Assembly (NCBI RefSeq): GCF_024713975.1
Contig: NC_091112.1
Coordinates: 472,001-536,000, forward strand
Length of the DNA: 64,000 nucleotides
From: Paralichthys olivaceus
Lineage: Eukaryota; Chordata; Actinopteri; Pleuronectiformes; Paralichthyidae
Direction of reading: 5' to 3'
Positions 236 through 46,759 of the stretch are shown in pieces. The notes under the pieces are model-generated. The model was not told where the DNA came from. It saw nothing but the letters and a program-made list of their open reading frames with translations, and made no database searches. The position numbers and the translations under genes were made by a program. Numbering within the stretch: the first letter of the stretch is position 1; each line of letters opens with the position of its first letter.

Positions 236-292
236 ATGGCAGCTCTCTCATGGGTCCTCTCTCTCCTCTGTTAGTATCCATGCATATACATG

Positions 293-330
<38 letters not shown>

Positions 331-3300
331 TGTATATATTATATTTCATACTTCAAAGATTCTTCAGAGATACTTGACTTCAGGTTCTTCAGCTTCTCAC
401 CTCCTCTCTCTCCTCAGGTGTTGCAGGATGTCACCGGTCTTCAGCCTCACCTGTTCTCCGCTCTGTCCCGGGGGTCCAGGTGGGGCAGAACGTCAGTCTG
501 ACCTGTGAGCCGAGGTCCAGCGAGGAGGTCACCTGGTACCTGTTGCCTGCAGGTTCAGACCAGCTGCAGGCTCTGCTGACGATCACCCTCGGTAACCTGG
601 GGCAACAGGTGGTCGTCCACCACTCTGAGAACATCAGCCACATGAGCAGCGGCGGGGGGGACGAGGGGACAGACCCCGTCACTCTGAAGATCACAGCAGT
701 GGAGGAGCGGGACGGGGGGATGTATTTCTGCTCCGTACGGTGTCAGGGGTTCATGTGCTTTAACAGAGGGACTCTTCTGTCTGTGGACGGTGAGATGTTT
801 GATGAGGAGCGACCTTTAACCTCCAAGTCTGACGAGGAAGGTCAGAGGTCAAAGTCTCAACTGATCAATTATCTGTTTGTTAGCAGGAGCCGATGGGACG
901 TCGGCCACAGTTGAGACCAGTCCGCCATGTTGGAGCCTGGGAATCTGTGTCCTTCCTGCTTCACTCGTCCTCGTCCTCCTTCTCGTCCTCGTCCTCTTCC
1001 TGGGATCAGGTGTGTGGCTGCCTGTTTGTGGGTTATTGACACCAATCAATCAATCAATCAATCAATCAATTAAAATGATGTCATAGTATTGATGAAGCAA
1101 CCAACAGTACAGAGATAAGTTACAATGATCTCAAAGTCATGTTTGCATATGAATTCACCCGAAGTTAAATATAAATATGAATATAATATAAATGTAATAT
1201 AAATATATAGACATTCTACTTTTATTTTTTGGTACTGAAGTACTTTTAGTTGAGTAGTATTTTGACCACAGTTAATATCATGAACTAAAATCAACAGTAA
1301 ATGATGAACAGTTAAAAGTCACTGAAGTGAAACCCGGTGAGGATGTTGGAGGTGGGGGGGCTGTAACACCTCCTACTGGTCAGAGGCTGTAACTGCAGGG
1401 TACAAAAATTTAATTTAAAAAAAACATTTGAGACTTGGCTTATATCTTTTTATTTTACTGTTATTTTCGATAATGAATTTAATTTCAGAACATTCAGTTA
1501 TTTTCTGTGGAGCCTAATTAATAAAGTGACTGAAGTCTCAAAAATACAATCTGATAATTGACCTTTCGTGCTAAAACGATATATAGAGAACTTCCCTTCT
1601 GTTTGTGCTTCTGCTCAAGATGATGATTTATTTGCTCCAAAACTAAAATTGTTGCCTGTTGTCATATAAAACTGTTCCAATATTTTATATAGTATTTAAA
1701 GTGAACAAAATGTTGTGCTGTGTTAAATACGACAGAGTTAAAGGGGAGTTCCTCTCAGTCTGAGTGACTTCCTGTCTCTGTCATGACGTCACGCTCAAGT
1801 GATCGGATGTAGGAAAATAAATACAACAAAAATCTGCTGTGGCCTGTTTTCAGAAAGAAGAAATTTATTGACTAGATGTTTTAATAATAGACATTATGAT
1901 TGTGAGTTTTTTCACAATAAAAGTATCGAGACAAATCAGCATGTTTACAACTAAAAATCATCAAATTAAAATCGAGCAACGTGATTGGACAGAAAAAGAA
2001 GAAACAGGAAACATCTTCAAACATTCTAAAAGAATCAAAGACTGAACCAAACGTTTCCACAGAAGCATTCAGAGAATAAATCCACTTCCTGTCGGACCAC
2101 GCACAGAGATCATGACGAGTCAGATGTTGGCGGTTTGAACTGGGGGACGTCCTCGTGTTGATGATCAGACGTGTGGTTGAATCGTGGTCGGCGTGTTTCT
2201 ACAGCTGCTTCAGCAGCAGCCCGTAGGGACGGATGGACTCCTGCACGATGGCAGTCGTCTGGACGGGGTTCGACCCTTCGGGGACGTAAACCAACCAGAC
2301 GTCTTCTCTCTGACACTTCTTCCTCTTCTCCGGGTTGATGCGGTTCTGAAGAACCACCTTGTACGTCTTCCCGTCCACTTTGGACTTGAACACCTTGCAG
2401 TATTTCTCCGCCATCTTGATGTCTGGCGTGGAGTACGCTCCCCTGCCCTTGGTGTCACCGGTGGTCAGAGAGGCCGCGGCGGCGTCCAGAAACCCGGGCT
2501 CGTTCTCCGGGATCCCGTCGTGGGTCAGGATGATGCCGAGGGAGCCGTCCATGTTGTGTGCGTGGTAAGAGACGGGCCACGCGTCCTTACCGGTCCCAAG
2601 CCAGCGGTCATTGCCGTCGTACTTCCTGCTGACTCGTAGGGCGACGCGGCTCCACCCACAGGGACGAACGTACGGCTCGTTACCTCGGAGGAACACGGTG
2701 TCGCCATCCTGGAGGTCAACAGAGGTCAACAAAGGTCAACTGAGGTCAACTGAGGTCAACTGAGGTCAACAAAGGTCAACTGAGGTCAACAAAGGTCAAC
2801 AGAGGTCAACAGAGGTCAACAGAGGTCAACTGAAACTTGAAGATCAAACATTAAACTGAGTTCTAACACACACACACAATAACACACATACACACACAAT
2901 AACACACACACACACACACAATAACACACACACACACACACACACACAATAACACACACACACACACACACAATAACACACATACACACACACAATAACA
3001 CACATACACAGAATAACACACACACAATAACACACAATAACACACACACACAGAAACAATAACACACACACAATAACACACAATAACACACACACACACA
3101 CACACCCCCTCTCTCTCTCTCTCCCCCTCTCTCTCTCTCTTCCCCCCCTCTCCCCCCCTCTCTCTCTCTCCCTCTCCCCCCCCTCTCTCTCTCACTCTCT
3201 CTCCCCCTCTCCCCCCTCTCTCTCCCCCCCCCCCTCTCACTCTCTCTCCCCCTCTCCCCCCCCCCCCCCTCTCTCACCCGCACGGAGGTGAAGTCATAGT

Positions 3301-5516
3301 TGAACTGAGGATGGAAGAACTCCTCCAGGTTGATCTTCACGCTCGCTCTCTGACTCTCCTGCAGCCCCGGGTCCTCCGTCAGTGCGGGCGGGGAGCTGTA
3401 CATGTCCCGGTCCTGCTCCTCCAGGGACAGAGACCCGACCCCCGGGTACTCCAGCTGCTCCAGACCCTGCTGCTTGTAAAACTCCCGGAGCGCCACGATG
3501 TTCACGAAGTCCTGCGGAGTGAGCGGAGACGACCCCGTGGTGGAGCCCACGTTACAGCCGCTGAGAGCGGACAGAGCCTCCAGACACAGGCCGGTGTCCG
3601 GCATGGTGCTGAGAGGAGCTGACAGAGGACACGGCCCGGGACAAGAGCACCGGAGCCCGGGACTGACAGAGGACACGGCCCGGGACAAGAGCACCGGAGC
3701 CCGGGACTGACAGAGGACACGACCCGGGACAAGAGCACCGGAGCCCGGGACTGACAGAGGACACGATCCCGGACAAGAGCACCGGAGCCCGGGACTGACA
3801 GAGGACACGGCCCGCGACAAGAGCACCGGAGCCCGGGACTGACAGAGGACACGACCCGGGACAAGAGCACCGGAGCCCGGGACTGACAGAGGACACGACC
3901 CCGGACAAGAGCACCGGAGCCCGGGACTGACAGAGGACACGAGCCGGGACAAGAGCACCGGAGCCCGGGACTGACAGAGGACACGACCCCGGACAAGAGC
4001 ACCGGAGCCCGGGACTGACAGAGGACACGGCCCGCGACAAGAGCACCGGAGCCCGGGACTGACAGAGGACACGGCCCGCGACAAGAGCACCGGAGAGAGA
4101 AAACTTTCACTTTCACATTGAAAACACTTTCACTTTCTGTGGACCTGGATCAAGACTGTACGAAGAGTAATAGAGTATTAAAGTAATAGAGTATTAAAGT
4201 AACAGAGTATTAAAGTAATAGAATACTAAAGTAATAGAGTATTAAAGTAATGGAGTATTAAAGTAATAGAGTATTAAAGTAATAGAGTATTAAAGTAACA
4301 GTCATTTTGCGTTTGGAGGATAAAGTTATCAGTTCTGACAGTGAAAGACAAAATAAAATGAAAACTAACATTTGATGATAAAAAGTTTCTGTCAAGTATT
4401 TTGACCTTTTATCAGAATTTCCACTTTCTATCTCATAATAAGTTTTTATTAGTTTATAATTCGTTTTTTTATATTTTTATTTGTCATCTCATATTCTAAT
4501 ATATTACTTTTTTAGTTAAGAACAAGAAGTGATTGAGTATAAAGTATTTATTTAAGAGTTTAGTGGAACTTATAAATAATGTATGAAACTGCTGTTGTTG
4601 TTCTTCTCCAACTAAATGACAGGAAACATCTTGACGAACACATTTAACTCATCGTCTTTATCACTCACGCGTCTGCGAACATGAGGGAGGAGGGTTTATG
4701 ACATGTACTGCAGCCGGCCACCAGGGGGTGATAGAGCTGCGTAGGCCTCTCTTTTGGTCATGTCGTCCATCTTTATTTAAAGTCTGTGTTTCAAACCGAA
4801 TCAGCTTCTAATGGTTCTGAACATTTAGATGTGATTTCTCTTCTGAGTTTCACTTCAGGGATTTTATGAATGACTGTGTTTGGATCTCGGACCCTCGTGT
4901 CTTCGTTAAAACACAAACTGAATCCTTGGTGTTGAACTTTAATCACTGACTCCGCCTCCTCTCTTCGTCCGCAGGTAAACCAGCTGTTTGCAGCTGTCGC
5001 TCAGGGAGCAGGGCGTCGGCTCCGAGGGTCACAGAGGTCAGTAGATCTCAGCTTCGCTCGCTCTTTTTGATCCGTCTCTTCTTTTCCTCTCTTCTTATTG
5101 GACGTTCTTTTTTCAGAACAGTGACACCAACACTTTCCTTTATCAACCCTCTGCATTTGATGATGTCATCTTTGACCTTTGACCTCCATGAATGCACGTC
5201 CGTGTTTACATTTTATGCTTTTATTTTGTACGTTTCACTGTTTTACGTTTAAAACTGCGGCGCTGCACCTTTAAACGTGCGACTGTAGCAGTTTCACAGT
5301 AACTGATCAGTTCCTCGTCTCGAGGATGATGTTTGTGTCGTCATGGAAACAGCTGATGTGTCTCTGCAGGACGACTTGCTGCATTACTCCTGTCTGAAGC
5401 ACATGGACCAGCCACGCCCCCCCGGCCAACAGCGAGCACGATTGGTGCGACAGGACGTCACGTACTCGGCGGTGGCCAGTCGCAAAAACCCGACAGGATC
5501 ACGTGACCGCAGATAG
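236..5516 (+). CDS. Ig-superfamily receptor with ITIM-like tail (receptor 1)
   Basis: Type I membrane receptor, 245 aa, in five coding exons: 236-269, 418-789, 887-1009, 4975-5036 and 5370-5516. Exon 1 encodes the start of a hydrophobic signal peptide (MAALSWVLSLL). Exon 2 encodes one V-type Ig domain with both core cysteines (VSLTC and DGGMYFC), the core tryptophan (VTWY) and two extra cysteines after the second core cysteine. Exon 3 encodes a short stalk and a leucine/valine-rich membrane helix without charged residues. The tail has LHYSCL and, near the end, VTYSAV; both fit the ITIM pattern, and TYSAV also fits an ITSM. Such tails normally recruit SHP phosphatases, so an inhibitory role is inferred. 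Junction phases are 1,1,1,0 and all close. A poly(A) signal lies at 5877-5882. Related fish families include NITR-like and CD300-like receptors; I cannot assign one. The third intron, about 4 kb, contains a whole opposite-strand gene. Confidence 0.75.
1864..1869 (-). terminator. Poly(A) signal of the ART-like gene
   Basis: TTTATT on the plus strand, that is AATAAA on the minus strand, about 330 bases after the stop at 2199. It is the best-placed signal for this gene; cleavage was not observed. Confidence 0.45.
2199..3604 (-). CDS. ADP-ribosyltransferase-like domain protein, probably interferon-induced
   Basis: Two coding exons on the minus strand, 3604-3278 and 2708-2199, joined in phase 0, give 278 aa. 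The first about 100 residues are acidic and without a recognised domain. From about residue 110 the protein has a compact domain: GNEPYVRPCGW, then WPVSYH, GRGAYSTPD, VVLQNRINP and a final IRPYGLLLKQL. The SYH and GRG-x-Y-s-t-P-D blocks resemble the first two positions of the H-Y-E signature of PARP-type transferases. The usual glycine after the histidine is replaced by alanine (SYHAHN), and no clear third glutamate is visible, so activity is uncertain. I recall a widespread uncharacterised animal and fungal family with this architecture; it is not the classical fish Gig2. There is no signal peptide, so it is probably cytosolic. Two ISRE cores lie at 4105-4137. The gene sits inside intron 3 of receptor 1. 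Confidence 0.75.
2713..2830. repeat. 10-bp tandem repeat, AGGTCA direct repeats (DR4 spacing)
   Basis: Twelve copies of a 10-base unit, AGGTCA followed by AACA-, AACT- or ACAG-type spacers. Each AGGTCA is separated by four bases, the DR4 spacing used by thyroid-receptor and LXR heterodimers. The array runs directly into the splice acceptor of exon 2 of the ART-like gene; on that strand it reads GTTGACCTC and supplies the sequence before CAG. Regulatory use is inference; it may simply be a minisatellite. Confidence 0.9.
2866..3270. repeat. CA and CT microsatellites in the ART-like intron
   Basis: CA repeats broken by CAATAACA from about 2866 to 3104, then CT/CCCC-rich sequence to 3270. They fill the single intron of the ART-like gene. 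The long cysteine/valine-rich and arginine/glutamate-rich reading frames here are products of the repeat, not proteins. Confidence 0.95.
3621..4095. repeat. 44-bp GC-rich minisatellite upstream of the ART-like gene
   Basis: About 10.8 copies of a 44-base unit that begins GACAGAGGACACGGCCCGGG. Copies differ at a few positions, mainly CCCGGG, CCCGCG and ATCCCGG variants. The array ends 16 bases upstream of the start codon at 3604 and begins just inside the ISRE cores, so it lies in the 5' leader or proximal promoter. Because 44 is not a multiple of three and the unit has no stop on the minus strand, all three minus-strand frames are open (the 424, 204 and 164 aa frames). None is likely to be a protein. 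Confidence 0.95.
4104..4139 (-). promoter_or_regulatory. Two interferon-stimulated response elements
   Basis: On the minus strand two copies of GAAAGTGAAA occur, at 4114-4105 and 4137-4128, 23 bases apart. This exactly fits the ISRE/IRF core GAAANNGAAA. They lie about 500 bases upstream of the ART-like start codon and on the expected side. What is seen is the motif pair; interferon induction is inferred. Confidence 0.7.
4166..4300. repeat. AT-rich minisatellite, about 15-bp unit
   Basis: About nine copies of a unit close to TAGAGTATTAAAGTAA, with AACAG and ATGGAG variants. It lies upstream of the ISRE pair, within intron 3 of receptor 1. No coding potential. Confidence 0.9.
4301..4974. other. 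Intronic stretch with one dispersed-repeat copy
   Basis: Rest of receptor 1 intron 3. It contains a partial dispersed repeat at about 4700-4790, with the CTCF-like string CCACCAGGGGGTG at 4718-4730 and the companion TCGTCCATCTTTATTTAAAG. Nothing coding was seen. Confidence 0.6.
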
Positions 5517-6175: not shown

Positions 6176-9100
6176 AAATGGCTGCTGTGTGTTTAACAGC
6201 AGCTCTGGTGATGACGGATGAGTAGATGACGTGGTTCTGGTCTTGGTCTGGTGGCGTCCGGCTCGGCCTCTCGCTCCAGTTATGTCGACCCAGAGAGGCG
6301 TAGTGGATGGTGTCATCCGTCGTGGACCAACGCTCTGACTCCTCCCACTCTGCGGACACACACGCACACACACACACACACACGTGTTACAGGACCTCAG
6401 GTGAATGGAGGACGTGAGGACAGAGCAGCAGAGTTACCGGTGTGTGTGTCGCTCGTCCACGGCTCCAGCTCAGTGTCGTCATGTGTCTGTGCAGCTGCAG
6501 AGGAAACAGGAGGAAACATGAGGCCGAGAATCTTCTTCAAGTATAAACATTCATGTGAAGTCCACAAATACTGTCACACACACAATAACACACACACACA
6601 CACACACACACACCTGTATATCTTTGTTTCCTCCTGCACTTGACGCTCGTCAGTAAAATGAAGACGACCATCATGAGGAGCATCACCAGCCCCGAAGTGA
6701 CGACAGCGACCATCAACAGAGCTGAGACACACAACAAACACAACAAACACACAACAAACACACAACATGTGATCAACAACAGGTGACACAGCCTCAGGTG
6801 TGAGACAGGAAGTGACGTGTGTGTGAACGAACTGCTCTTAGTCTTCTTCTTCTTCTTTGATTCAACCGCATCTGATGAACAGGAAAGAACACTCGTTCAA
6901 ACTGGATCAATAAACTGTTTATTAAGTTTCAGGTGTAAAAACATGTGAAGAAGAGGCTCTTCATCCTAAATAATGATTTTCATTTGTGGTAAATTGTCTC
7001 AAATTGTTGATTCTTGGCAGAAGAAAGTTCTGAGAGGTTTGTTGTTTTTATATAATTCAAATATAAATGGTTAATTAACAGTTTAACTCAAATATAAATG
7101 GTTAATTAACAGTTTAACTCAAATATAAATGGTTAATTAACAGTTTAACTCGAATACAAATGGTTAATTAACAGTTTAACTCAAATATAAATGGTTAATT
7201 AACAGTTTAACTCAAATATAAGTGGCTAATTAACAGTTTAACTCAAATATAAATGGTTAATTAACAGTTTAACTCAAATATAAATGGTTAATTAACAGTT
7301 TAACTCAAATATAAATGGTTAATTAACAGTTTAACTCGAATACAAATGGTTAATTAACAGTTTAACTCAAATATAAATGGTTAATTAACAGTTTAACTCA
7401 AATATAAATGGTTAATTAACAGTTTAACTCAAATATAAATGGTTAATTAACAGTTTAACTCAAATATAAATGGTTAATTAACAGTTTAACTCGAATACAA
7501 ATGGTTAATTAACAGTTTAACTCAAATATAAATGGCTAATTAACAGTTTAACTCAAATATAAATGGTTAATTAACAGTTTAACTCAAATATAAGTGGTTA
7601 ATTAACAGTAATTCAGTGCAGATGTGCAGCTGCAGAAACTCACCTGTTCTCACGGCTGCAGATGTTGACGTGATCGACATCTTGACGCTCGTTGGTTCTG
7701 GATAAACTGAAAAATAAAAGATTTAAAATTCTAATGTGATGAGTCAGTTCCAGAAAAACAATGTTCAGAAATATTTGCTTTTGTATTTATTATCTCATAC
7801 ATATCATTAACATTGTTGTATCATGTATAACTATATTCTTATTAGTCTATATAAAGTCTCTATTTTTATATTTTTCAACATTTAGTTTATTTTGATTTGA
7901 GTCCAGGTGGAAAATGAACAATAAACTGAAATCAGGGACAGAAACTTAAAAAGAAAAGAGGGTGGATCCTGTGTGACATCATCACCAGCTGAGGTGTAAT
8001 CACTCGCCTGTGAGGACCGTGACTCTGCCCTGCAGCTCCCCGTTACACTGATACTCTCCAGCGTCCCCTGGCTGCAGGTCCTGGATCTGCAGGGCGTCGT
8101 ACATGAAGCTGAGGCGGTCGTCTTCCCTCTCGAGTTTCATTGTCCCGTTTCTGAAGCGGGTGAAGATGGCCTCCCGCCTGCCTCCTCTCCTCCGGTGAAA
8201 CCACCTCTGTCTGGGTTTGGGCGAGCGGCCGCAGGGAAGCAGCAGCGTCCAGCCTGAAGACACCGAGAAGTCCCGACCTGAGGAGGCGGAGACACGGGCC
8301 AGGTGCTTTTTTATTTTCATGTTAAAACACATCGACTTTATGAATCTACGTCCGTCTGACAAAACTGTGACGCGTCGTCTCCTCTGGATTCACATTCCAG
8401 TCTCCTGTCATACTGCACCTGCCCAACAGGTGTCCTCAGACTGTCCCAGATCCACCTGCTCACCTGGTTCCTATTCCCAGAATGCACTTCAAACATAACA
8501 GCTCCCTACAGGAAAGCCAAAACATCTTGCTCACCCCCTGGTGGCTGGCTGTGGTATTTGTTATGATCACTACTGCACAGTTGTCATCAGCACAAAATGG
8601 CGGCTCCTGTATCTGAGATATTTTGGCTTCATTTTTGACCAAGCAGTGGTCAAGACGTGTCGTCCATCTTTATTTTCAGTCACTGAAGGTCTACACAGAC
8701 AGTAGTTGATTTTATACAAACATATAAATACATGTGTATATGTACCTGTCAGTACCTGCAGCTCGGCCACCGGCTGCTCGTTGCAGCGATACTCTCCGCT
8801 GTCAGAGTCGAGGAGCTGCAGGAGACAGAGGCCGCCGTCAGACAGCAGCAGGTGGCGCTGCTCCTCCTCGTTGGCATCGTAGTCCTGTTCGGGGACCAGG
8901 ACGTCCCCGTCCCCGCGAGTCCAGATCACATGAGACGTGTCTGAGGCGCCACAGAGGAGACAGACGTGATGATGCTCCGGGACCGAGAACCGGATCAGAG
9001 CTGAGAGAGAAAGTATCAGAAGCTCTGAGCCACAAAAACCTTTAACTGACACATGATTGTATTTAATCATCTCTGTTTTAAGTGAATTGAATGTTTCACC

Positions 9101-9860
9101 TCCTGCCTCCTTGAACTGATCTTAAATTCACATTAGAAGACGTATCCTGTGTTCATGTGTACTCAGGTAGTTTCTACATCTTAAACCGGTTTCTGGACTT
9201 GATATTAAAAAGTTTCCTTCATCAGATATATTTATATCTATCAGAAAATATTCCTGATGCATCACAGTTTGTTTCCACATCACGTCCGTTATATTTAGCT
9301 GCAGATCTGTGTCACTCTCCTGCTGATGCTCACTTTTAACCTGGTTTCCTGCTTTATCTCACGGTCACATGATCCCTGTGGTCCAGTCAGACAACAACTA
9401 AGAGGGTGGAAATCTTGAAAATAGAATTTGACATCTGTGTGTAAAGATGTTTATTTAAAAGAAAAACTGTGAAAACTAAAGTTCAGTTACAATTTGTCCT
9501 GAAAAAAACCTGTCAGAAGAAAACAATCAATCACAGTTTGTATTCATATTGACAAAATGTTTTCACTGCTGGATTTATTTCAATATATATTAAGTTAGAA
9601 AAATCATTTTAATTTCTTGTTGAACGGTTTTTCCTTCATGTGTAATAGTAAAGTTTACAAATGATATTAAACGAAAGATTCTGTGCAAATTTCCGTTAAT
9701 AAACAACAAACACAAAACATCGATACAGGACTAGTTAAAGCATTAATAATAATTATATGAGATTATTCATTTAAATGAAGGATGATAATAACTGAAACGT
9801 ACCGGTGGAGTTTTCAGTCTGTAAAAACCAAACCCAACAGAAAATGATGAAACAGATCAT
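6174..9860 (-). CDS. Ig-superfamily receptor with two Ig domains and ITIM-like tail (receptor 2)
   Basis: Type I membrane receptor, 328 aa, in seven minus-strand exons: 9860-9803, 9000-8746, 8277-8008, 7706-7644, 6721-6614, 6494-6438 and 6349-6174. Exon 1 is a signal peptide (MICFIIFCWVWFL). Exons 2 and 3 each encode a V-like Ig domain ending in the D-x-G-x-Y-x-C motif (SGEYRC and AGEYQC). Exon 4 is a Ser/Thr-rich stalk. Exon 5 is a membrane helix followed by basic KCRRKQR. The tail holds IHYASL and VIYSSV, two ITIM-type sites in the same order as in receptor 1. All junctions are phase 1 and the frame closes exactly. The donor after exon 3 is GC (ACAG followed by GCGAGT), which keeps the phase; the nearest GT would break it. 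Inhibitory signalling is inferred from the tail. The start lies about 870 bases from the atf6b start codon, in divergent orientation. Confidence 0.78.
7054..7607. repeat. 31-bp AT-rich minisatellite
   Basis: About 18 copies of a 31-base unit containing AAATATAAATGGTTAATTAA and then CAGTTTAACTC, with occasional CGAATAC and AAGTGG variants. Variants recur at regular steps, suggesting multi-unit duplication. It lies in the intron between the stalk and membrane exons of receptor 2. Every unit holds the palindrome TTAATTAA, a homeodomain-type sequence. Confidence 0.97.
8530..8690 (-). repeat. Dispersed repeat copy (Wiggle-free 'GATGGACG' family) with CTCF-like motif
   Basis: Contains CACCCCCTGGTGG (8532-8544), then AAAATGGCGGCTCC, GATATTTTGGCTTC and TCGTCCATCTTTATTTTCAG. 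The same blocks recur in variable order and completeness at 24570-24615, 37675-37970, 50630-50725 and 51945-52260. Copies occur in both orientations. I infer a non-autonomous mobile element but cannot place its ends. The label 'GATGGACG' is only a nickname from the shared string. Confidence 0.6.
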
Positions 9861-10727: not shown

Positions 10728-17697
<6,970 letters not shown>

Positions 17698-31508: not shown

Positions 31509-34500
31509 GTCGTTAGTTAAACGCGTCGCTGTAATTACTAATGAGTAAGCTCCACCCCCTTCACTGTGGAGAATCATGGCTCCATTTGAGGACAGTGAGT
31601 GACACGTTCACGTAAACAGAAAAAATGAGTGATGGTTAAATGAAGCAAAGAAACGTCCGTCAGGTGAAAGTGAATCGTGAAGCATCAGGTCTGATCATCC
31701 AGTCAAAGATGTAAGAATCTGGTTTCCTCTGCTCCAGGTGCCGGTTGTTCCATCAAACCCAAAGAGGACGAGTGTCCTAACGAGTGCAGTGACCAGGGAC
31801 GCTGTGTGGACGGCAGGTGTGAGTGTTTCCCTGGATTCAGCGGAGCGGACTGCAGCGACTCCAACTGTCCTGGAAACTGCCACGACAACGGGAGGTGTGT
31901 GAACGGACAGTGTTCGTGCGACCCGGGATCCAGCGGCCCGGACTGCTCACAGAAAGCCTGTCCTGGCGACTGCAGAGGTCACGGGCGCTGCGTCAACGGT
32001 GAATGTGTTTGTGACAGTGGATTCACTGGTGCAGACTGCTCCGAGACTTCCTGCCCTGGACTCTGCACCAACAGGGGGCGCTGCGTCAACGGACAGTGCG
32101 TTTGCGATGATGGGTTCAGCGGTGCAGACTGCTCTGAGCGAACGTGTCCTAACAACTGTACCGACCGTGGACAGTGCGTCAACGGTCAGTGTGTTTGCAC
32201 AGAAGGATTCACAGGTGCGGACTGCTCCGAGACTTCCTGCCCTGGACACTGCACCAACAGGGGGCGCTGCGTCAACGGCCAGTGTGTTTGCACAGAAGGA
32301 TTCACAGGTGCAGACTGCTCCGAGACTTCCTGCCCTGGACACTGCACCAACAGGGGGCGCTGCGTCAACGGCCAGTGTGTTTGCAAACAAGGATTCACAG
32401 GTGCAGACTGCTCTGAGACTTCCTGCCCTGGACACTGCACCAACCGGGGGCGCTGCGTCAACGGCCAGTGTGTTTGCAAACAAGGATTCACAGGTGCGGA
32501 CTGCGCTGAAAAAACTTGCCGTAACAACTGCAGCGAACGCGGCAGGTGTGTCAACGGGAAGTGTGTTTGCAGCGTCGGCTTCTCTGGACCAGACTGCTCC
32601 GCTAAAAGTTGTTCCAATAACTGCAGCAACAGGGGGCGCTGCATCAAAGGCAAGTGTGTGTGCAGGCGGGGCTTCAAAGGGCAGGACTGCAGCCTGTGTG
32701 AGGACGGAGTGACGGGGACGAACTGTGAGACAGGTGAGTCAAGGGGCGTGGCTGAGATCTCATCATGTGTGGTTTCATTTAGATTTGGTAACATTTGACG
32801 AGCAGAGGACAGAGCGGGGACAGCTACGTGATCAACAATGTGAAGGACAACGTGAACAAGATGAACTTGTGTTGTGCAGTTTGTTGTACGACCTCGTCCG
32901 TGGTTCTGCTCTCGTGTTCCCTCATGCTCCTCAGGTTCAGGCGACTTAATTCATAACTGAAATAACTTTGTCGGTGACTTCCAAAACTGTTCCAAGATTA
33001 AATACTACGGTTAACGATGTGTTTAGGGCGAAAGACATCGGTCGGACACAAGTCGTGGTTTGAGCTCTAGAATAATCGTGGTCAACAGACTCTGCTTCCT
33101 CCTTTCAGTAATAATTCACTGGAAGGTTTTACACTTGAATGTCTTCTTCTGTCATGTGTTTTTAATGGAGCATCACACTTCACATGTTTGGTTTATGACC
33201 CAGATGTTTGACTTCATTATAATAATGTCATATAATAACTTCAGTGATGGAACACAGCAGAGTCTGTGATTCCTGCAGGACGCAGCTGATGAATGTGCTG
33301 TGAACCACGGCAGTAAGAACAGTTTGAATCTCAGTTATGTCATGTTCTCAACTTCTTTTTCAGGATTGAAGAAATGAACTTAACGTCATAATTCGCAGTG
33401 TCTACCTCCGGTTCTGTTTTCTTGTTGTTCTCGTTGCCGGGCTGTGTTCGTCTGGAGCCGCTTCAAGCTGCAGCGATTCCAGTGACGGAACCGTTTCATT
33501 AGCGCAGCAGCCGGATCCAAACCTCCAGCTCATAAAACACAGATCGCTGTGTAATGACTGAGGCTGACGCACAACAGACACCAGTGTGTGTCTGCGCGAG
33601 TGTTAAGTGTTTCACCAAATGTAACCGACCTCTGATTGGAGCCGAGGGAGGGATGTCCCAAAATCTGAGACGAGTTAGTGGACGATCGTTTCCATCCACA
33701 TGTTTTCATTCACAAAGAGGATTCGAGACACTAGAAATAAAAAAACATGGATGAAACACAAGATGATTTAGGTTGAAGATGGTTGAAATATTGAAAAAGA
33801 TGAAAAGGATTATTCCTTCAGCCTCACTGAGTCCGGTGATGTCACTGAAAACCTTTATCCACAGAAACGTGTCCCAGATAAAAAGCTTGAATCCGTCATT
33901 TACTGGATGTGAAGACGTTTCTCAGACGCTGAATTCAACTGATTGTTCTTTTCCTGCAGTGCAAACAGAAAGTTGGTGTTTGTGGATTTGAAGTCAAATA
34001 TCTGAGACTTTTACTTTAGTGTCATCATCAGGTGAAAGTTTGTTTGGACCAAATACCTGATGACTGAACAAAAACCTTTGAATTCAGGAGGAAGAGAGAG
34101 GTGGCGTGAGATCAGTGTGATGTGATGATGTTCACCACGTCTCCGTCTGCTGTGATAATGAAGCGCATGATGTCGGAGTTATAATAATAATTATATTCTG
34201 GAACATTATTACGTCAGCGTGTCAGTGATCCACTGAGCCGTGAAATGTTCAGCTGATTTTATGAGGAGCCGGTAAAATAAATCTGAGTTATTATCGAACA
34301 CGAGGCTCTGCGTCACAACGAGCCACATGTTTCTGACTCCAGAGAACATCTGACTCCAACATCTGATGAACCAGAGGACGAGAACATACTTATACTCTAT
34401 ACTGTTATATTATTATACTATATACTTCTATAGAAACAACCAGTGGAGTCGCCCCCTGCTGGTCATTTCACATGATACAGGTTTCAGTCAATATTCTTAA

Positions 34501-35548
34501 ATGTCATGATGATTAATCACTGTGTAAATGAATGTATCCATCTTCTCCGAACCCTGATGCATCATAACATCTGTGAATCCAGCTGCTGAACAAACGTCTC
34601 ACCTTATTGGACATGCATGTAATTCTACATACATGTTAATATAAACACGTGTAACTGATGCTCACGTCCCTGTCTTTAGTGATGTCAGGTGTTTCCCAGC
34701 TGAGAACTCAGGACGTCACGGAGACGTCCGTCACTCTGCTCTGGACTCCGCCTGCTGTGCAGTACGACACCTACCACGTCAGCTTCAGCAGCGAGGTACC
34801 ACACTTCACTTCACTCACTTCACCGCACGAACAAAGTCAGCTCATCGTTACGTTCAACTGATTCTTGTGGTAGAAGAAAAAACATCTGCAGCTTCGATCT
34901 GTGAAACCTCTTCGTATAAACATCTGTTGAGTCTGAAGTAAAAACCTCAAGTTTTTTATGTCGTAATCTCAAGTGGATGAAAACAAAATGTCAAACCCAC
35001 ACGGACACACACTCTTCATCTTCTGTTTAAAAATCTCTCTGAACATTCAACTCGATCCAGATTTTTAGTTTCACGTCAGTTTCCTTTAATTCTCTGGGTG
35101 TGTCGTTAGTGTCGAACACATCCTCCTGTTCTGACTCTTTTACTTTGGTTTCCTGCACAATGCAAAATGAAAGGTTGAGCTTTTAAAGAGGAAAATACAA
35201 AATAAGGTTTCAGCTTTGCTGTTGCTATGGTTACACCTGGTGGAGACTTGTGTAAACTGGTCTGGTTTTAGTTTGAAATCTCTGTGGTTGTGTTTTAGTC
35301 TGAACAGAAACTGAAACCAACCATCATGAAAATAATAAGACGAATAGTTTATCTGTTGTTTTGATGTGAATTCGAGAGGAAACATTAAAGTGAGACGATG
35401 AATTATTACATTTCTCATTGTAACCATAGAAACCAGTGAGGTCTTCATTCACAAACATGTGTGATTAATTAAAATTACTGAAGAGAGAGAGAACAAAGAA
35501 AACACCTTTCAACCTCGCTCTCTCAATCAGTCAAAATCAAACCTGTCA

Positions 35549-35608
<60 letters not shown>

Positions 35609-36160
35609 TAAAAGTGATCATCTCTCCCTGCAGTGACATCATCACGGGATTAAGCTTTAATGGGAGAGAGAGAGAGAAAGAGAGAGAGAGAAATGAAGGT
35701 GGGGGTAAAAGTGATGATGACAAATGACGACCAGGGGTTGTCCTTCCCGTGAGCTCAGCCTAAAAGATCCTGAAGTTATTCAGAAGAAGTTAGCCTGATC
35801 TCACAACGCTGCCTGGAAGTCTCTGAGAAGTGGGTGTTTTAAAGTTGTCTGTTTACATATGCAAAATTTAAAAATACAGATTCAGCCATGAAGAAGAAAA
35901 AATCAAATATACAAAACATTTCTGAGAGATTTTAATGAAAAAAATTAGTTTCAGTCACAAACAGTTTTAATTTGATCTCTCGAAGCTTCTCTCTCAGCAG
36001 AGAGCAGCTTAAAGTTAGAGGCAGCGACCGACCGATCGCTCTGGAGGAGGGAAGATGCAGATGTGGGATGCTTGTAGCCACGGTAACGTGTAAACACTGT
36101 CAAACACATGGCAACTGCCAGAGAGGTGACATCACCGCTGGTCCACAGCTGTGATGACAT

Positions 36161-36195
<35 letters not shown>

Positions 36196-36370
36196 CATAG
36201 AGAGAGAGAGAGAGAGAGAGTGAGACAGAGAGAGAGACAGAGAGAGAGACAGAGAGAGAGACAGAGATGTTTTCCAGAACAACAGATAAACAACAGCTGA
36301 CTGCAGAGGAACATTTGTCTCTGAGGAATCAGGAAGTTTCAGAATCATCTTTTACACTTAATCTCAGTTA

Positions 36371-36424
<54 letters not shown>

Positions 36425-39400
36425 TCCTAACTTTAACACACAAACGTACACACAGGGCGGTTGTGGCTCAGGGGGCAGATCAGTCGTGCTCTAAGCAGAA
36501 GGTCAGGGGTTCGATCCCACTGTGTGTGAATGTGAAACAACACACTGATGGATTTTGTGTCTGGACTGACAGAAGGACAGCGACCAGCAGATCACCGCTC
36601 AGGTGGACGGAGGCCTCAGCAGCTTCACTCAGACAGGACTGGCAGCCGGTCAGGAGTACAGCGCCACCATCACCGGGGAGATCGGCGGCAGGAGAGGAGC
36701 CGAGAGCTCCACCGAATTCATGACCCGTGAGATTTTTTATTTTTATGTCTTTTTACTAAACACTCTTCTGATTCTGTGTTTGAGAGGAGATGAGAAGAGA
36801 ATGTGCTCTGGTGGCTGTGAATCTCTTTATTACCTCTATTATTATTTTACTTCTCTATCTTCAGTCATCTCGGGTCCCACCAACCTCAAAGTCGTCAAGA
36901 CGACGTCCACGTCCACGGTGGTCCAGTGGGACAAATCGCAGGGTGAGATTGACAGGTACCGTTTGAACATCACTCCCAGTGACGGAGCCGGGAAGACTCA
37001 GGAAATCACCATACCCGTTGACCAAGACTCCGCCCACATTGGGCAGCTGGAGGCAGGGCGTTCATATGACATCATCCTCGTGGCAGAGAAGGGCGCGAGT
37101 CAGAGCCAACCGGTGACCACGCAGGCGGTTCCCGGTGAGTAGGACTGAAAAATGAGTTTTTCTGAAAGTCAATGACGATACAGCTTTAATGAAACTTGAC
37201 AAAATCAAAGACATCACTGTCACCTTTTGTTTTCACACACGTCGTCCTCCAAACATGGATTAGTTCTCCTCTGTCCCATCAGCCACAGACCAACACTTCT
37301 TTTCATGTGTTTTAAGATTTGCGAGCTGCAGCTTCAACAAGAAAGAAAACCTCTTGTTTCCTGAACTCCGTCATCATGTTTCCTTCTCGACAGCGACACG
37401 GACATCGAACCTGTTGAATTCCTCTGTTTACTAATTCTATTTCAATCTTCTCCCTCCAGGTTCTACATGAAGACCACCGTCCTTTTATAAACACCGTAAC
37501 AGCTACTGTTTATCAGGATTCATCATGATCCCAGTCACTCTCTGTCACTTTATGCGTCTCGTAAATATGTCGGATCTCAGAAAAGTTTAAATAAATCCGA
37601 GACGCGCTCCTGACGGATTCAATTTGTGTTTTGTAACTATGGCAACAAACATTGTGTGGCAATATCACACAAATAAAGATGGAAGACACATGAAGCCAAA
37701 ATATCTCGAATACCAACGCTACCATCTTTGAATATTTGGAGTCTGTGAAGTAGTGATCGTGACTTGGAGCTGCGTCTAAACTATATTGATCAGAAACACT
37801 TGAACAAACATCAGTGAAATAAGAACGACCTGAAATGACGTCTCATTTGTGTTTGGTTCACGTCCTATACTGAGCTGTGCTACAGCCGACCACCAGGGGG
37901 GGATTGAGACGCTTTGGCTTCATTTAAGGGAACTGTCCTGTCGTCCATCTTTATTTACAGTCTTTGGGAACTAGTCACTGTTCACAAGTTCTTCTTCTAG
38001 TGTTTTGGTCGATGGCACATGCAGGAAAACGATTTTGATCAAATTCATGCGCTGGTTGATTCACTCTGTTAACTATGATCTCTTCTGTGTTATTCACAAC
38101 AGCAGCATACAATGAAGTTAACATTGACACCAAGTGCTCACTCCCTTCACAGCTTTAGGGAACAGTTTACCAAGGGTTACCACGGCAGCTTTGACCACAC
38201 CGGCCAGACTCGCACAGAGACAAGAAGTTGGCAACTTGAACCAAGAATTCAACCCATCACCTGAGGTGCAAGCCTCTGACCAACAGGGGGGAACGGATAA
38301 TGAACCAGAGGCTGAGTCTGTACAAGTTGGAGGTATCGATGGACCCAACAAACACTCTCCATCTGTGGCTGCGAGAAATAAACCTCTGGTTAGCAGGACC
38401 ATGGCAACAAATGGCACCAGACCCAAACACGCTGAAAAGCTCACGTTGTCCAGGAAGCCAAAACTTCCAGGCCCTTTCCGATTCAACACAACCAGAGTTG
38501 TACCTGGAGAAAGAGTGATTGGCCGTGGCCCCTTGAAAAAGCCCCTAATGGGGGAGAAACGGAAGGCCCCGATAGTGCCCAAAAAATCTAAACCAAGTGT
38601 CTCCAAACTAGGAACCAGGACAATAGATATGACTGTGACAGAACCTCACACTGAAGCATCCAGTTCTGAGAGGAGGGATGACAAACATCCTGCTATAATG
38701 TCTGGAACCGGTTCAGAAACACACAGACAAAGTAGCTCAGAGGAACCGAAGAGGCAACCAGATGTTAGCGTGTCAGGCCAAGAAAACGACACAGCTCCAG
38801 TGTCTTCAGAGCGAACTGGGACCATTCAGAGCCAGGAGAAGAAATGCTTGAACAAAGTTAAAGTGACGCACACCAGATTACCCCATAAGGACAGAGGCAG
38901 TGGGTGTAGAGGGGATGGGACAGTGGTAGCAGGAAACACATTAGAATCAGATCGATCCACTTCTGATTTGAAACTCTCGTCTGCAGAGACAGACCTGGAC
39001 TATTCACCTGAGTCTCTACAAAAACTCCTGATGGACACTTATGACATTTTGAATATCACAACGTTTTCCGTTCACTTGTCTAAACCATCGGACCTCTCTG
39101 TTGATGAAGACATAGTAAGGAGCCAGATTTTCACAAGACTGAAGCCCCTCTCTTCGTTTTCATCCTCTTCATCATCCTCATCAAACTCACAGTCATCATC
39201 ATCATCAACATCATCCACATCCACAGCAGGGACTTCACCATCACCTTTACAAGTTTCTTCCTCATCCACAGCAGCCCCATCATCATCATCATCATCTTCA
39301 TCACTACCATCACTTACACCTTCATCATCATCACTGTCACCTCCATCATCATCATCGTCATCATCATCATCATCTTCATCGTCTTTCAGCTCAGACAAAC

Positions 39401-42400
39401 CAGATTCATTTGGAAATATTGAAGAAAATGCTGTTAAGGGCGAAGAGACAACTGACGCAGCATCACCGGGAGAAAGAAAACCACCACCTTCAGGAAAAGC
39501 TGGCGCACCACTTCTCCGTCACACACCTCCGAAACGAGGTTTCATTCGTCGTCCGCGCCCAATTTTTGGTTTGTTTCCGAACAGAACGCAGCCGAATTTT
39601 AGAGGCCCTCACCATCCCCCTCCTCGTTTTAACATTATCCCAAGAAGACAGTCAGAGACAAGGGATGCGTCCACGAATGGATCATTGCCTTCGTCTGCTT
39701 TGGAGGAATCATCCCCAGTGAAGATGAACACATTAGTCAGGGATGCGAGTAGAGACATGGATGGACCAGCTTCACCTGCGTCCTCTGGAGAAAACCAGAA
39801 CATTGTGCTGACAGAAATCCCAGTTCGCCCTCCTCCTCCAAAAGGTGGATATATGCGTCGCCCCCTTCAGAACAAAACTCGACCTAATTTAAGGCTTCTG
39901 ACTCGCCCCATTCGACCTTTAATTACTGAAACTAAAACACAGAGGGGGGAGGTGTCTCCTGCTGAAGTTCCAACCACTTCATCTCCTCCTGATGTCGAAG
40001 AATCAAATCTGGCTGAAAGTAAAGAGCCAATAAAAGAGGATAATGAAGATAGAGCTGGGGTGAGAACCTCCTCAACAAGAATGTCCAGTGAGTTAAATGA
40101 GACTCTCAGAGGTAGTGGAGAACCTTTCTCCCATCGTCCAACCAAAGTTCAATTTTTCCGTCGCCCCCAAATGTATTCTGGAAGTCTCCAGAACAAAACA
40201 CGTCCACACATGAGACGACCTCAATATCCACGTAGAGGTCTTATGCACAAACCTTTCCCTGTCAGAAAGCTGAATGGAGAAGATGCTGGAAGTCAAACTA
40301 GCCAACAAGAAAAGGGGAGTCCCTCTGAATTCCCTGAAGTCCCAAATAACAACCAGTTAGGAGAGCAGGACGTCCCCAGGCCTACCCAAGGAGTAGAAGT
40401 TCGAATTAGACAAACAGGAGAACAAGAACCTGCACATGTAAGAGCCCTGATGGATGGACACGATACTGCTGTCAGTCCACAAATTAACAAAGTAGAAAAT
40501 GGAGAAAGTTCTCCAATCCAAACAACCAAATCTGGGGAAGAAGAACGTAGAACTATAGCTTCCAAGAATGATTCTGACCTCCATAACCTGCGCGATACCG
40601 GCAGAACTCCTGCCTCTACAGTTCGAAGAAGTCAAAATATCCAACAAACTTCCTCTGATTCAAAAGATTCAAGAACAGTCTCACTTCCAAAGCAACAACC
40701 ACCATCCAGAAATCTGACAGGACATCGCACCCAGATGAGGGAAGAGGAGCCTAAAACAAATCCTACTGTTAAAAGGCTGTTTGACAGTAAAACTGGACAA
40801 ACAAGAAATGCTGCTTCAAAACATTTGATGGGATCAGATGTTGCTTCCTCTGGAGTCACAAGAGAACATCTGGACTATGTAGGAGTGACGAACCGGACCT
40901 CCGATGGTTTTACGCTCATATGGGACTCGCCGGAGGGAAAGTACAAAAACTTTGTCGTAACCACGAAACAAAATGAAAAAGACAAAACGCTGAATCAAAA
41001 GGGAAGTCAGAAAGTTCAAGAAAGACAACAGGGAGACTCAGAGAGACAGGAGGGGAAGAATCAACCAACTGATGAACCGAAATCAGGAGGGAGAATCCCT
41101 GAAGGTGAAAACCGAGTCTCCGAAAGTGACGTTACACATATTCCAAAGAAGCAAAGCAGCACAGCAGTTAAACCAGTAACAGGAAGTGAGAAATCCTTCA
41201 AAGAAGTTCTTCCTGGTTCAGCTCGCTCCCACCACTTTGTGGATCTGCCTCCTCAGACTGAGTACACCATCACCTTGCTTGGAAAGGGTCCTGGTCTTCT
41301 GTCCAGACTGCACAAGCTTGTCATCAGTACAGGTACAAGCTGCTGTGACAGCAGAACAACACAAATCACTGCTGTACAATGCAACAACATTACTGTCAAT
41401 GTTGTGAAGCCTTCAAACGAAACTCGCTCCTTCCCTCTTGAACCTGAACCAGTCTCAGAGTTTTCAGAATAAAATCCCTTCATGCGTGCGTCATGTCTTC
41501 ATTGTGTTTCATGTTGAACTGATCAAATCACATTCAATTGTCAACTAATCATCACCTGTCTTAGTATGACTGTTATAATATTTGCTTACCCACTAAATAC
41601 CTCTTTCATTTTCATTTCAAGAGCTCAGGTGTCGTGTTGCTCTTGAAAACTGTAAACGTTTACGGTTCCACATCCGTCATCCGTGTGTTTCTCATGTAAT
41701 GTTTTGTAAAAAGTTGAAACCTGGAAATTTGAGTCGATCATGTCAGATTACATCTGGACACTTCTGCTGTTCATGATATGTGTTTCATATTGTTTTTAAA
41801 TATTTAACATTGATGATGATGATTTGTTCGGTCTGGAACAACTGATCCGTTTTCCTGGACATAAATTCTTGATATGTTTTAAAATGGTTTGGTTTATGTT
41901 TCAGTCCAAGATTTGGAAAAAGTTCTGTTTTATAGAGCAACAACATGAGGCCACCATTCATTCACTGCCGCTCTGGTCTTCTGTCACTCAGGGTGAGCTA
42001 ACAGCAGCTTCACTGACACCCCTCACCCCTCACCACTCACCCCTCACCCCTCACCACTCACCCCTCACCCCATCACCCCATCACCCCATCACCCCTCACC
42101 CCTCACCCCATCACCCCATCACCCCTCACCCCTCACCACTCACCCCTCACCCCATCACCCCTCACCCAAACCAGGGTAAGACCCCCGCTGGTCTGCCTTC
42201 ATCCTCTACATCCAAATCCACTTTCAATAAAAATTTAAAAAGTGGATATTTTATGATCAAATTGATCCGAGTATCAAACATGATACACACACACATTTAT
42301 CTTTACAGGATCAATTTAAAGACTCAACTTCAGGAGAAAAAATTGCAAATGCACAAAATATTAAGATTCAAACACAGGAAAACCAAACTGTGTATTTAGA

Positions 42401-44485
42401 TTTGTTCAGTGAGACCCAGTCAGGTTCATCCGTCTCAGTCATTTCCTAACGCTCCAAATGAGTTTTCTCCTCCAGCTGCTCTCACTGTGTTGAATTAATA
42501 TCTGAATATATTTGTTTTCATTCATCTTGTGAAATTGTCTCCTCGTCCTCTTTTGGTTCGACGTCATTTATTCCTGCCACGCTCTTATTTTCAGGTTTGA
42601 CCAGCTAACATCATTCTCTCCTCTGCTGCTGCCCAGGATCCATCGTCTGCATATGTGACACCTTCTGTCTGTATATGATTGTATACTGTATATATGTTTG
42701 CACTTTACATATATACACAGAAACTCATTGGAGCACTAATAGCAACAGTGTGGATGATTAATAAACAATGTACATGCTCTTTTTATTTTCTCTATACTTC
42801 AGGTTATTTATTTACTCTTTACTGCTTTATCACTATTTTTACTTTTCTAAATCCTTCATTATATTTTTCTCCTTTGTCTTATTCCTGTTGCTTCTTTTTC
42901 TTCGTTCTTGTTTCCCTTCCTATTTTACTTCCTCGTCTAATTCCTCTCCCTGAATTCACGCCATCCAGGCCCCGAGCCTCCGACCGACATCGTCTTCAGT
43001 GAGGTGACAGAAAACTCTCTGACAGTTTCCTGGACCAAACCCAAGAATCCCGTCAGTGGTTTCAAAGTCACCTACACCAACACTGAGGATGGTGAGGAAC
43101 TGACTTCAGGATGTGGCTCATGTTGTTTTTCAGTTGAACTGCAGGTTCCTGGATTTGCTAACAAACGTCTTTATCTTCACACTAACTCATAGCTCAGCTT
43201 ATTCTCATGAATAATTAGTGCACTAGTTTAAAGCAGCAGGTGCTAATTGCAGATATCCTTTACTTTAGCTAAGTGGTATTTTTATGGTCATGACGTTCAG
43301 GAGATTAATCGACGTTCACTGATCTGATTCTAGGAAAATAACATGTCTGCAGCTGTTGAGGAGAAAGTGAAACACATTAGTGTTAAATGATCTATGACTG
43401 AAGCTGTTGCATCATCTGGCCTCAGCGCTGATCACTGGAGCAGCTCAGGGACTAACTTCCTCTGAGGATGTGGATCCATGTATGAACCAATAAATGACTC
43501 GTTCTTGTGAGTGCAGGGGAGCCGGTGTCTGTGTCCCTGGACTCGGACGACTCCTCCGTCGGCCTATCGCAGCTCTCTCCTGGTTCAACCTATGAGGTCA
43601 GCATCCTCTCCATCCTCGGCCCGGACGAGAGCGACCCAGTCAACAGCTTCGTCTCCACACGTGAGAGCTGCAGGTTTCACTTGAGTTCATTGTGCTGCTG
43701 CTGAGTTATCAGAGCTGCACGACCTTGAAGCACGTTTTCACCTCTGGAGAGGATCTGTGCATGTTCTAGGTTCCTCAGAGGAGCCTCGTTTGAAGCTCTG
43801 TTGTCCGTATGAAACTTTCTCTGCTGCTCAGTCTCATCTTGTCTCCACTTCGGTTTTTGAGCCACAGTTTTTGTTTCTGTTCTCTTTTTACCATTTTACG
43901 TCGACTCCTCTCTCAGTCCCTGACCCGCCGACACACCTACGGGCCGTGAACGTCACCGACACCGAGGCCTTGCTGCTGTGGCGTCCGGCGTTGGCCACCA
44001 TCGACAAGTACGCCATCGTCTATGGCTCAGGTTCAGGTACGTGGGGGTGCATCTGTGTTTGTTAACCTAACGATCTTGTTCTGAAAGTCAGCTGCAGAAG
44101 AGTGAAAGGTTCCAGTGAAAGAAGCAACTTAATTATTCTGTTGTTACGTCTGAAATTCACTTCAGATCCCAAATTTAAAAAAAACATACAATAACCACTA
44201 AAGTAAAGTTGCGGCGTCTCGCACCCATCAGAGGATGTGACCACCGCTGAGCTGTGGCTAGAATCCAACGTTATCATGTAGATGTCTTCAGACTCTAGTG
44301 GCAGCGCCCGGCTCACTGTGTGTGTTCAGGTTCAGAGTTGAGGATCACGGTGTCTGGAGACGCAGCCGAGCAGCAGCTGAGCGGTTTGGAAGAATCCACC
44401 ACCTACACCGTCTCCATCACCGGTCAGCTGGGCCGAGGAGAGAGCTCACCGGCTGCCACCAGCTTCACTACCAGCAGAGGTCAGT

Positions 44486-44528
<43 letters not shown>

Positions 44529-46759
44529 AACTATAAATAAAGATGGACGACATGACCGCTCCCAAAAGTAAAGTCAAAGTGTCTCCATCGCCCCCTGGTG
44601 TCTGACTGCAGTACATGTCATAAACCTCCTCCATGCTAGCAGATGGGACAAGAACCAAACTAAAAATCAAAGTTGGTTTCTGTCATTTCAGGTCGTTCTC
44701 ATCAGTTCAGTTTGAATCAGCTATTTGATGATATAAAATCAGTTATGATTGACAGCTGAGACGTTATGATTGACAGCTGAGACGTTATGATTGACAGCTG
44801 AGACGTTATGATTGACAGCTGAGACGTTATGATTGACAGCTGAGACGTTATGATTGACGGCTGAGACGTTATGATTGACAGCTGAGACGTTATGATTGAC
44901 AGCTGACACTGATCCAGATGAAAAGTAAAAAGTGAAATGGAAAACATTTCTCCAGGGAGCGAAGGCGACGTGCCACGAGATCTCCAGGCCAACAACGTGA
45001 CGCCTCGTAGCGCCCTGTTGTCATGGAAACCCCCTGTGAAGCCCACTGCCGGCTACCGGCTGACCTACCAGACAGAAGGTCAGGAAGTGAAGGTGAGATG
45101 AAGAACTCTCTGATGAACATCAACACTTCAACAGAATTTATCTTTTGATAGTAAAAGTTTCCTTCAAGTGGAAACTTGCATTTTAAGACCAACTTCATTT
45201 AAACTTTATTCTTCATATGAGTTGAGTCTTCTTCATGCATTTTGGACGTCAGCTGACTTCCTGTCCACTCACACAGTTATTCATGATCAGCAGATCATTC
45301 ACCAGAGTTGACTCCTGGTTCTTCTCCTGTTTTTCCTCGTCAGGAGGTGATGGTGGATTCTTCGGTGAGAGAGTTCAACCTCACCAGACTTTATCCTGGA
45401 TCTAAATACACGGTGCAGCTACAGGCGGAGGCAGGAGGACGATTCACCTCCGCCATTTCCACTGAGTTCACCGCCGGTACAAAATTTCTCCTTCTTGTTT
45501 GTCTCGTGGTTATTCATTTATAAACTCCTGACCCACTTCCCATGATCCTTTTCCCTCCTGCTCCATCCTCTTCTTCAGGTGCCCTGAGGTTCCCCTTCCC
45601 CACCGACTGCTCTCAGGAGCTGCTGAATGGCGTCAGGACGTCAGGCGAGGTGGAGATCTTCCCTCAGGGGAACCAGGGAGTGCCGATGATGGTTTACTGC
45701 GACATGGAGACAGACGGAGGAGGCTGGACGGTACGGGGACATCGGTGGCAGAATGGTCCTGCAGTGAAATGTGTCAGCCTCAGGTTTAAACACAGTTTTC
45801 CACCCGTGTCCACAGGTCTTCCAGAGGAGGACGGACGGCTCGGTGGACTTCTTCAAAGGCTGGAGGGAGTACATCAGAGGATTCGGGGATTTGAGCAGCG
45901 AGTTTTGGCTCGGTGAGAGAGACACTCGCCGCGACACTGAGACAGTTTGAGAACAGTCGCTTCACAGAGTCTTTATATCAAAATCATGTGAAGAACACGT
46001 TAATTATAACTCAACAGCTGCACGGACACATGTTTTTCCTCTTCCTCTGCAAAGTGTGAAGGGAGCTCCTCTCCTGGTAAATTTGTAAAAACTGAAATTG
46101 GTATTTGACGCCTTCAGGCCTCGAGAAACTCCACAACCTGACAACAATGACCAGGATGAGTCTGCGTGTCGACCTGCGAGATGGAGACGACTCAGTGTTT
46201 GCTAAGTACTCCACGTTCGGGGTGGCCAGGAGGAACTACAAACTGACCGTGGGTGGATACAGCGGGAACGCAGGTGAGACTCAACGGGTTTGAACCGACA
46301 ACATGGCGATCTTCAAACCTGCTGAAGTCTTCTGAAAACTTCCAAATCCCATTAATCCTCCACATCCCCTCTGTGTGTCAGGTGACTCTCTCAGTTACCA
46401 CAACAACTGCGTCTTCTCCACCAAAGACCGAGACCCGTCGCCGCTCCTCACCCGCTGCGCCCTGTCGTACCAAGGAGGATGGTGGTACAAGAACTGCCAC
46501 GAGGCGAATCTCAACGGACTCTACGGCATCGACGTCAAACACCAGGTAACCTCCGATCACAGCACAGAGTCTAACATTAATGTGACCGTCAGATGCTAAC
46601 CGCTTCCAAACTATCGGTCAGGTGACGAGAGAGAAACTCAAAGACAAAACACTTGAATATTAAAATCCAGTCAGATGTTACTATTTTGATTGAGTCACCC
46701 CCTAGTGGCACAAAGGTACGTACTGTGCTTTAAAATCAGTAGGTTTGATGCTGACGAGA

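Follow-up and report, generated by a model that had tools for sequence, protein, structure and literature searches.

Within the third intron of an ITIM receptor gene of Paralichthys olivaceus we find a gene on the opposite strand, here called W, which we judge moderately probable to be an MHC-linked, probably interferon-controlled and diverged fish PARP/ART-like gene, maybe the counterpart of the salmon 'VHSV induced gene', with a product that is likelier a ligand-binder, a pseudoenzyme or an altered mono-ADP-ribosyltransferase (mono-ART) than a standard transferase. The window analysed here is the whole stretch of 64,000 nucleotides from base 472001 to base 536000 of contig C20 (the genome comprises 588 Mb in 25 contigs), and all positions refer to this window unless another locus is named.

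The gene structure of W can be read directly from the DNA: it is a two-exon minus-strand gene (3604-3278 and 2708-2199) encoding 278 aa. The splice from 3278 to 2708 is of the GT-AG type and gives a single 278-aa frame, while an alternative donor at 3284 would give 276 aa. At the splice junction the protein aligns, with a gap of one residue, with two intact four-exon paralogs on contig C7, namely A (272 aa) and B (240 aa), whose intron positions match and which carry YHGT and GRGIYSTP. The features of W are:

3278..3604, minus strand: W exon 1, coding part (residues 1-109)
2709..3277, minus strand: W intron, GT-AG, 569 bp, absent from A and B
2199..2708, minus strand: W exon 2, coding part and stop (residues 110-278, ART-like domain)
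2556..2579, minus strand: motif I block WPVSYHAH of W (WPVSYHGT in A and B)
2421..2447, minus strand: motif II block GRGAYSTPD of W (GRGIYSTPD in A, GRGIYSTPY in B)
1864..1869, minus strand: AATAAA, candidate polyadenylation signal of W, about 330 bp beyond the stop

The GT-AG joins, the 278-aa frame and the surrounding receptor intron of 3,965 bp bear out the two-exon minus-strand gene in receptor intron 3 that an initial annotation had proposed, and the WPVSYH, GRGAYSTPD and NRINP blocks named there are all present in W. The whole-genome search with W, in which the best candidates were scored, listed seven matches, which are W itself and the loci on C7 and at C20:14.27 Mb. With paralog B as the query, the eleven matches listed fell on these same loci, together with one at E 1.2 (C18:4835170), which was dropped as a hexosaminidase-like frame by eye. 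The locus at C20:14.27 Mb (L020, about 4181-4700) holds an intronless, degraded copy of the family with stops and frame changes. It runs uninterrupted across two intron positions of A and B, agrees with B at 54% over B 63-156 and with W at 43% over W 94-173, and is probably a retropseudogene.

We regard the family of W, A and B with fair confidence as ART-like, and its predicted class is PARP/ART-like, near Gig2. The initial annotation had derived a PARP/ART likeness from the motifs of W; the relationship stands, but it comes through the paralogs and the profiles and not through W alone. Indeed, W by itself finds no match in Pfam, NCBIfam or PDB. The Pfam PARP domain PF00644 matches A at E 0.0015 (18.5 bits) and B at E 0.0079 (16.2 bits), both under the curated cut-off of 26.7 bits, and DUF3990 matches A at E 0.042. 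In a genome-wide PF00644 scan, W, A and B were all absent among the 40 matches listed (40 candidates scored). When the W+A+B profile was aligned by hhalign with two PARP domains of the same genome, we obtained P 8.8e-4 and a score of 27.1, with the top of 100 shuffles at 20.05; with two proteins of this genome that we take to be Gig2-like the values were P 4e-5 and 34.5, with the best of 100 shuffles at 20.7. Taken singly, the proteins gave P 0.31 (W), 0.012 (A) and 0.0032 (B) against PARP, and P 0.048, 6.7e-5 and 2.8e-5 against the Gig2-like proteins. Similarity to a known ART domain is consequently visible, weakly, for the family profile, for A and for B, and not for W alone. Two single-frame genes, L062 (C4:16.49 Mb) and L071 (C11:14.40 Mb), we take to be Gig2-like; L062 matches PF00644 at 1.7e-7. 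Single-sequence AlphaFold models of full W and of residues 121-278 were uninformative, with pLDDT values of 34.0 and 34.1.

The active-site motifs give a more differentiated picture. Motif I of the H-Y-[EDQ] clade is Hx[ST], located on strand 1 (PMC7955679), and W reads HAH at this place versus HGT in both intact paralogs. The exchange of SYHG for SYHA described in the initial annotation is therefore real, but its extent was understated. The motif II tyrosine lies in a GxGxY block (GRGAYSTPD, 2447-2421), and His158 and Tyr201, the H-Y of the active site, are invariant across W, A and B. These two residues, the retained GRGxYSTP block and a frame that has been kept open are what one would expect if W were an active mono-ART that tolerates HAH and modifies viral or host targets as antiviral PARPs do. 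We nevertheless consider such an enzyme unlikely: the Hx[ST] of motif I (PMC7955679) is broken in W, motifs I and II stand about 15 residues further apart, and the third catalytic residue is not placed by the PARP alignment, which spans 34 columns round motifs I and II and falls short of strand 5 with its motif III Glu/Asp/Gln. Because W is unmatched alone and carries HAH instead of HGT, its catalytic activity seems doubtful; the change from HGT to HAH together with the added residues makes a ligand-binder, a pseudoenzyme or an altered mono-ART the more likely product.

Searches further afield gave little. In PDB sequence searches up to E 10, W matched nothing, A1 (the alignment used as query) had two matches, and B and A2 had one each, with no ART entry among them; a PHROGs search returned three matches at E 0.13-0.48. 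In viral contigs W found no relatives, and none of the 361 stretches that matched the pattern of alignment A1 passed tblastn. Nine viral loci with the WPVxYHGT DNA pattern were set aside, their frames being 12-103 aa long with no other family block seen. The pattern GxGIYSTPD met two viral loci: L010 reads as unrelated and was rejected; the frame L011:2-1183 contains the block GPGIYTTPDF and resembles an ART-type protein. The pattern YKVVxQNRxNP had no match in viral contigs, and GRGIYSTPD had none in genome_contigs. The LRRC9 and NEURL4 ART families were considered by their description in PMC7955679 rather than by sequence. Among the papers searched we found no report that joins 'VHSV-induced protein' with 'ADP-ribosyl', and no account of an uncharacterized interferon-stimulated teleost ADP-ribosyltransferase expansion.

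The introns set W apart from its paralogs. Three introns common to A and B are absent from W, and the sole intron of W follows codon 109 in phase 0, at a place where A and B have none. It consists mostly of microsatellites (CT and CA) and of a 10-bp repeat, GAGGTCAACA, present in 11.9 units. The absence of the paralog introns is explained most simply if W passed through mRNA; we infer from the sequence that mRNA passage followed by intron gain is the simplest history, which would make W a diverged copy with its own intron built of tandem repeats. In a comparison of W, A and B, the intron difference may equally reflect loss in W or gain in A and B. Moreover, the approximately 15 extra coding residues of W, between motifs I and II, lie at the third-intron site of A and B, an insertion not expected of a clean retrocopy. 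At 2712-4298 W is crowded by tandem repeats of five kinds (10-bp, CA, CT, 44-bp and 16-bp); the repeat lengths may differ among fish and may be assembly errors. Another observation is that W is richer in GC at the third position of its codons (0.84) than A (0.58) and B (0.54).

Since W lacks the introns of its paralogs and lies among dense tandem repeats, and since its motif I is altered and its sister copy at C20:14.27 Mb is degraded, it could be an unexpressed or decaying copy that is open by chance. We find this improbable. Both exons are open, the GT-AG join restores the alignment with the paralogs, and an AATAAA and an ISRE pair are present. When paralog A was simulated, with substitutions only, to the divergence of W, 0 of 2000 outcomes stayed free of stops. 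The underlying divergences are dN 0.66 and dS 1.98 for W versus A and dN 0.62 and dS 4.5 for W versus B, both dS values being saturated, and dN 0.32 and dS 1.05 for A versus B.

Our preferred reading of W as a probably interferon-controlled gene draws on the DNA upstream of its ATG, which contains the following elements:

4103..4114, minus strand: ISRE/IRF-type element GAAAGTGAAAGT, core 4105-4114
4126..4137, minus strand: second ISRE/IRF-type element GAAAGTGAAAGT, core 4128-4137
3619..4095, minus strand: tandem repeat of a 44-bp unit (10.8 copies, 96% matches), lying between the ATG and the two ISREs
4166..4298, no strand assigned: tandem repeat of a 16-bp unit (8.3 copies), beyond the two ISREs as seen from the ATG

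The two ISRE cores reported earlier on the promoter side of W are present at 4105-4114 and 4128-4137, so that the candidate promoter holds ISRE/IRF-type elements as in an interferon-stimulated gene. The GAAAGTGAAAGT pair is located about 500-530 bp upstream of the ATG. In the window, GAAAGTGAAA occurs four times (0.46 expected; at least four copies in 0 of 100 shuffles) and the looser GAAANNGAAA 14 times (5.9 expected; reached in 0 of 100 shuffles). Less favourable is the count in other loci of the same genome, mutually overlapping and including paralog B and PARP-like genes, which hold nine copies of GAAAGTGAAA in 153,879 bases. Across the window and six loci (121,603 bases, 300 of them counted twice) we counted six copies, and four of the six belong to family loci: two at W, one 216 bp upstream of the ATG of B, where the DNA reads GAAAGTGAAACT, and one in an intron of B. 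The nearest GAAANNGAAA before the ATG of A is about 2.2 kb off. The paired form has eight matches at seven sites in 588 Mb, one of these sites being W, while the backward control of the same pattern has seven matches genome-wide, so the pair is rare and not enriched in the genome.

From these elements a course of events can be proposed. Once a virus is sensed, IRF-type factors would bind both ISRE elements and the W protein would be switched on, as happens with Gig2 and other antiviral genes of fish. Against this explanation counts the 477-bp repeat that separates the ISREs from the ATG. If transcribed, the leader with the 44-bp repeat would fold at -198.4 kcal/mol versus -181.0 kcal/mol for shuffles (sd 5.25), a value that 0 of 100 shuffles attained; given so strongly folding a leader, the start site of W may lie within or after the 44-bp repeat.

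The host of W is a receptor gene with five exons on the plus strand:

236..269, plus strand: receptor exon 1, with the start codon and, by eye, a signal peptide
418..789, plus strand: receptor exon 2, V-set Ig domain (Pfam E 2.4e-11)
887..1009, plus strand: receptor exon 3, which by eye encodes a hydrophobic membrane span
4975..5036, plus strand: receptor exon 4, cytoplasmic part
5370..5516, plus strand: receptor exon 5, with the stop and the two ITIMs (LHYSCL, VTYSAV)

All joins are GT-AG, the exon end phases are 1, 1, 1 and 0, and the product has 245 aa. The gene encodes what defines an ITIM-bearing Ig-superfamily receptor, namely an Ig domain, a membrane span (by eye) and the cytoplasmic motif [ILVS]xYxx[LVI]. 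The joining of exons 1-3 with exons 4-5 into one gene, as assumed in the initial annotation, is coherent by its GT-AG joins, phases, V-set domain, hydrophobic exon and ITIMs. A genome search with the receptor showed no close relative among the matches listed, the best other match having E 0.2. More Ig-type frames flank the receptor on the minus strand, at L041:7648-8175 (V-set, E 7.4e-7), L041:6396-6815 (by eye) and window 8003-9121 (V-set, E 1.8e-6), with an Ig_3 match at 0.017; together with the receptor they are a small Ig receptor gene cluster in the MHC region. At 161-232, on the minus strand, we also noticed a copy of the 3' end of W exon 1, its donor and the CT tract (73 columns, 81%; blastn 2.8e-11; score 88 versus at most 30 in 300 shuffles), which ends 3 bp ahead of the receptor ATG and points to an old duplication involving both W and the receptor.

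W lies wholly inside intron 3 of this coherent gene, in antisense orientation, and its transcription would head towards receptor exons 1-3. With the ISRE pair, such a layout could form an interferon-triggered switch in which the ITIM receptor is transcribed less once W is induced, so that an immune brake is freed in infection, and antisense cross-regulation of the receptor by W is what one might infer from it. Yet vertebrate genomes contain many nested genes, and beyond the layout the sequence holds no sign of interference, so that we think such a switch improbable. Highly improbable is the full combination in which an interferon-inducible pseudo-ART in an MHC-linked receptor intron lowers the receptor by this antisense switch during virus infection and has its own intron newly built from microsatellites.

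The reading of W as an MHC-linked gene draws on its neighbourhood. By Pfam we detected:

C20:462,662-465,417 (L041, flank): VPS52 domains
window 14676-15056: bZIP domain
window 31695-45913: tenascin-type EGF, FN3 and fibrinogen-C domains

Also within the window, Pfam detects one LIM domain and domains of MHC class I. We equate the bZIP gene with ATF6 on the basis of its place only. A further frame thought to be part of the bZIP gene had no Pfam match; neither had an L042 frame, RING1-like by eye, which was not used. In platyfish and tilapia, Z-lineage MHC I genes are linked to LHX9, TNXB and ATF6 (PMC4364491), and the Atlantic salmon order, as read from a text list, is VPS52, 'VHSV induced gene', ATF6, TNXB (PMC2846915; also PMC1971071). 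Because the set of VPS52, bZIP, tenascin, LIM and MHC I resembles these published regions, we assign the window to a fish MHC region. W sits between VPS52 and ATF6/TNXB, with the bZIP gene as ATF6 by place, as a counterpart of the salmon gene should. By this position W may correspond to the salmon 'VHSV induced gene', and virus induction of W is only suggested, by the likeness of the two neighbourhoods. The same salmon region also has four 'Hypothetical' genes (PMC2846915), which could equally be the counterparts of W, and 'VHSV-induced' names are borne by several different fish genes (PMC5499884, PMC1920521, PMC2291046).

In comparison with known systems, the salmon 'VHSV induced gene' (DW547400, BT072557) shares with W a place adjoining VPS52 and preceding ATF6 and TNXB, and its virus-induced label fits the ISRE pair of W. 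The likeness is positional, and nesting in a receptor goes unmentioned in the consulted passages of PMC1971071 and PMC2846915. If the orthology is true, the salmon gene would be tied to the PARP/ART superfamily and thereby to a testable biochemical class. With the PARP catalytic domain (PF00644, H-Y-[EDQ]), A and B share the YHGT and GxGxY blocks and weak Pfam and profile matches, but their bit scores stay under the cut-off and motif I of W is changed. The fish Gig2 family, interferon-stimulated PARP-like genes with a PARP-like N-terminal part followed by a conserved Gig2 C-terminal part (PMC3617106), resembles the W/A/B family in its weak PARP similarity, as seen in the hhalign comparison. 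However, only 69 columns align, mainly the PARP-like stretch, and the Gig2 layout is not found; unlike Gig2, the family has an N-terminal part of its own and ends in a C-terminal part with NRINP...IRPYGLLL, and W lacks YHGT. W is an ART-like copy that is kept open, with its motif I altered, alongside canonical sister genes. Finally, as in the creation of introns by tandem duplication (PMC4974935), W offers a candidate new intron in tandemly repeated DNA, which may have been built from those repeats; they are microsatellite and a 10-bp unit, and no duplicated exon sequence was seen.
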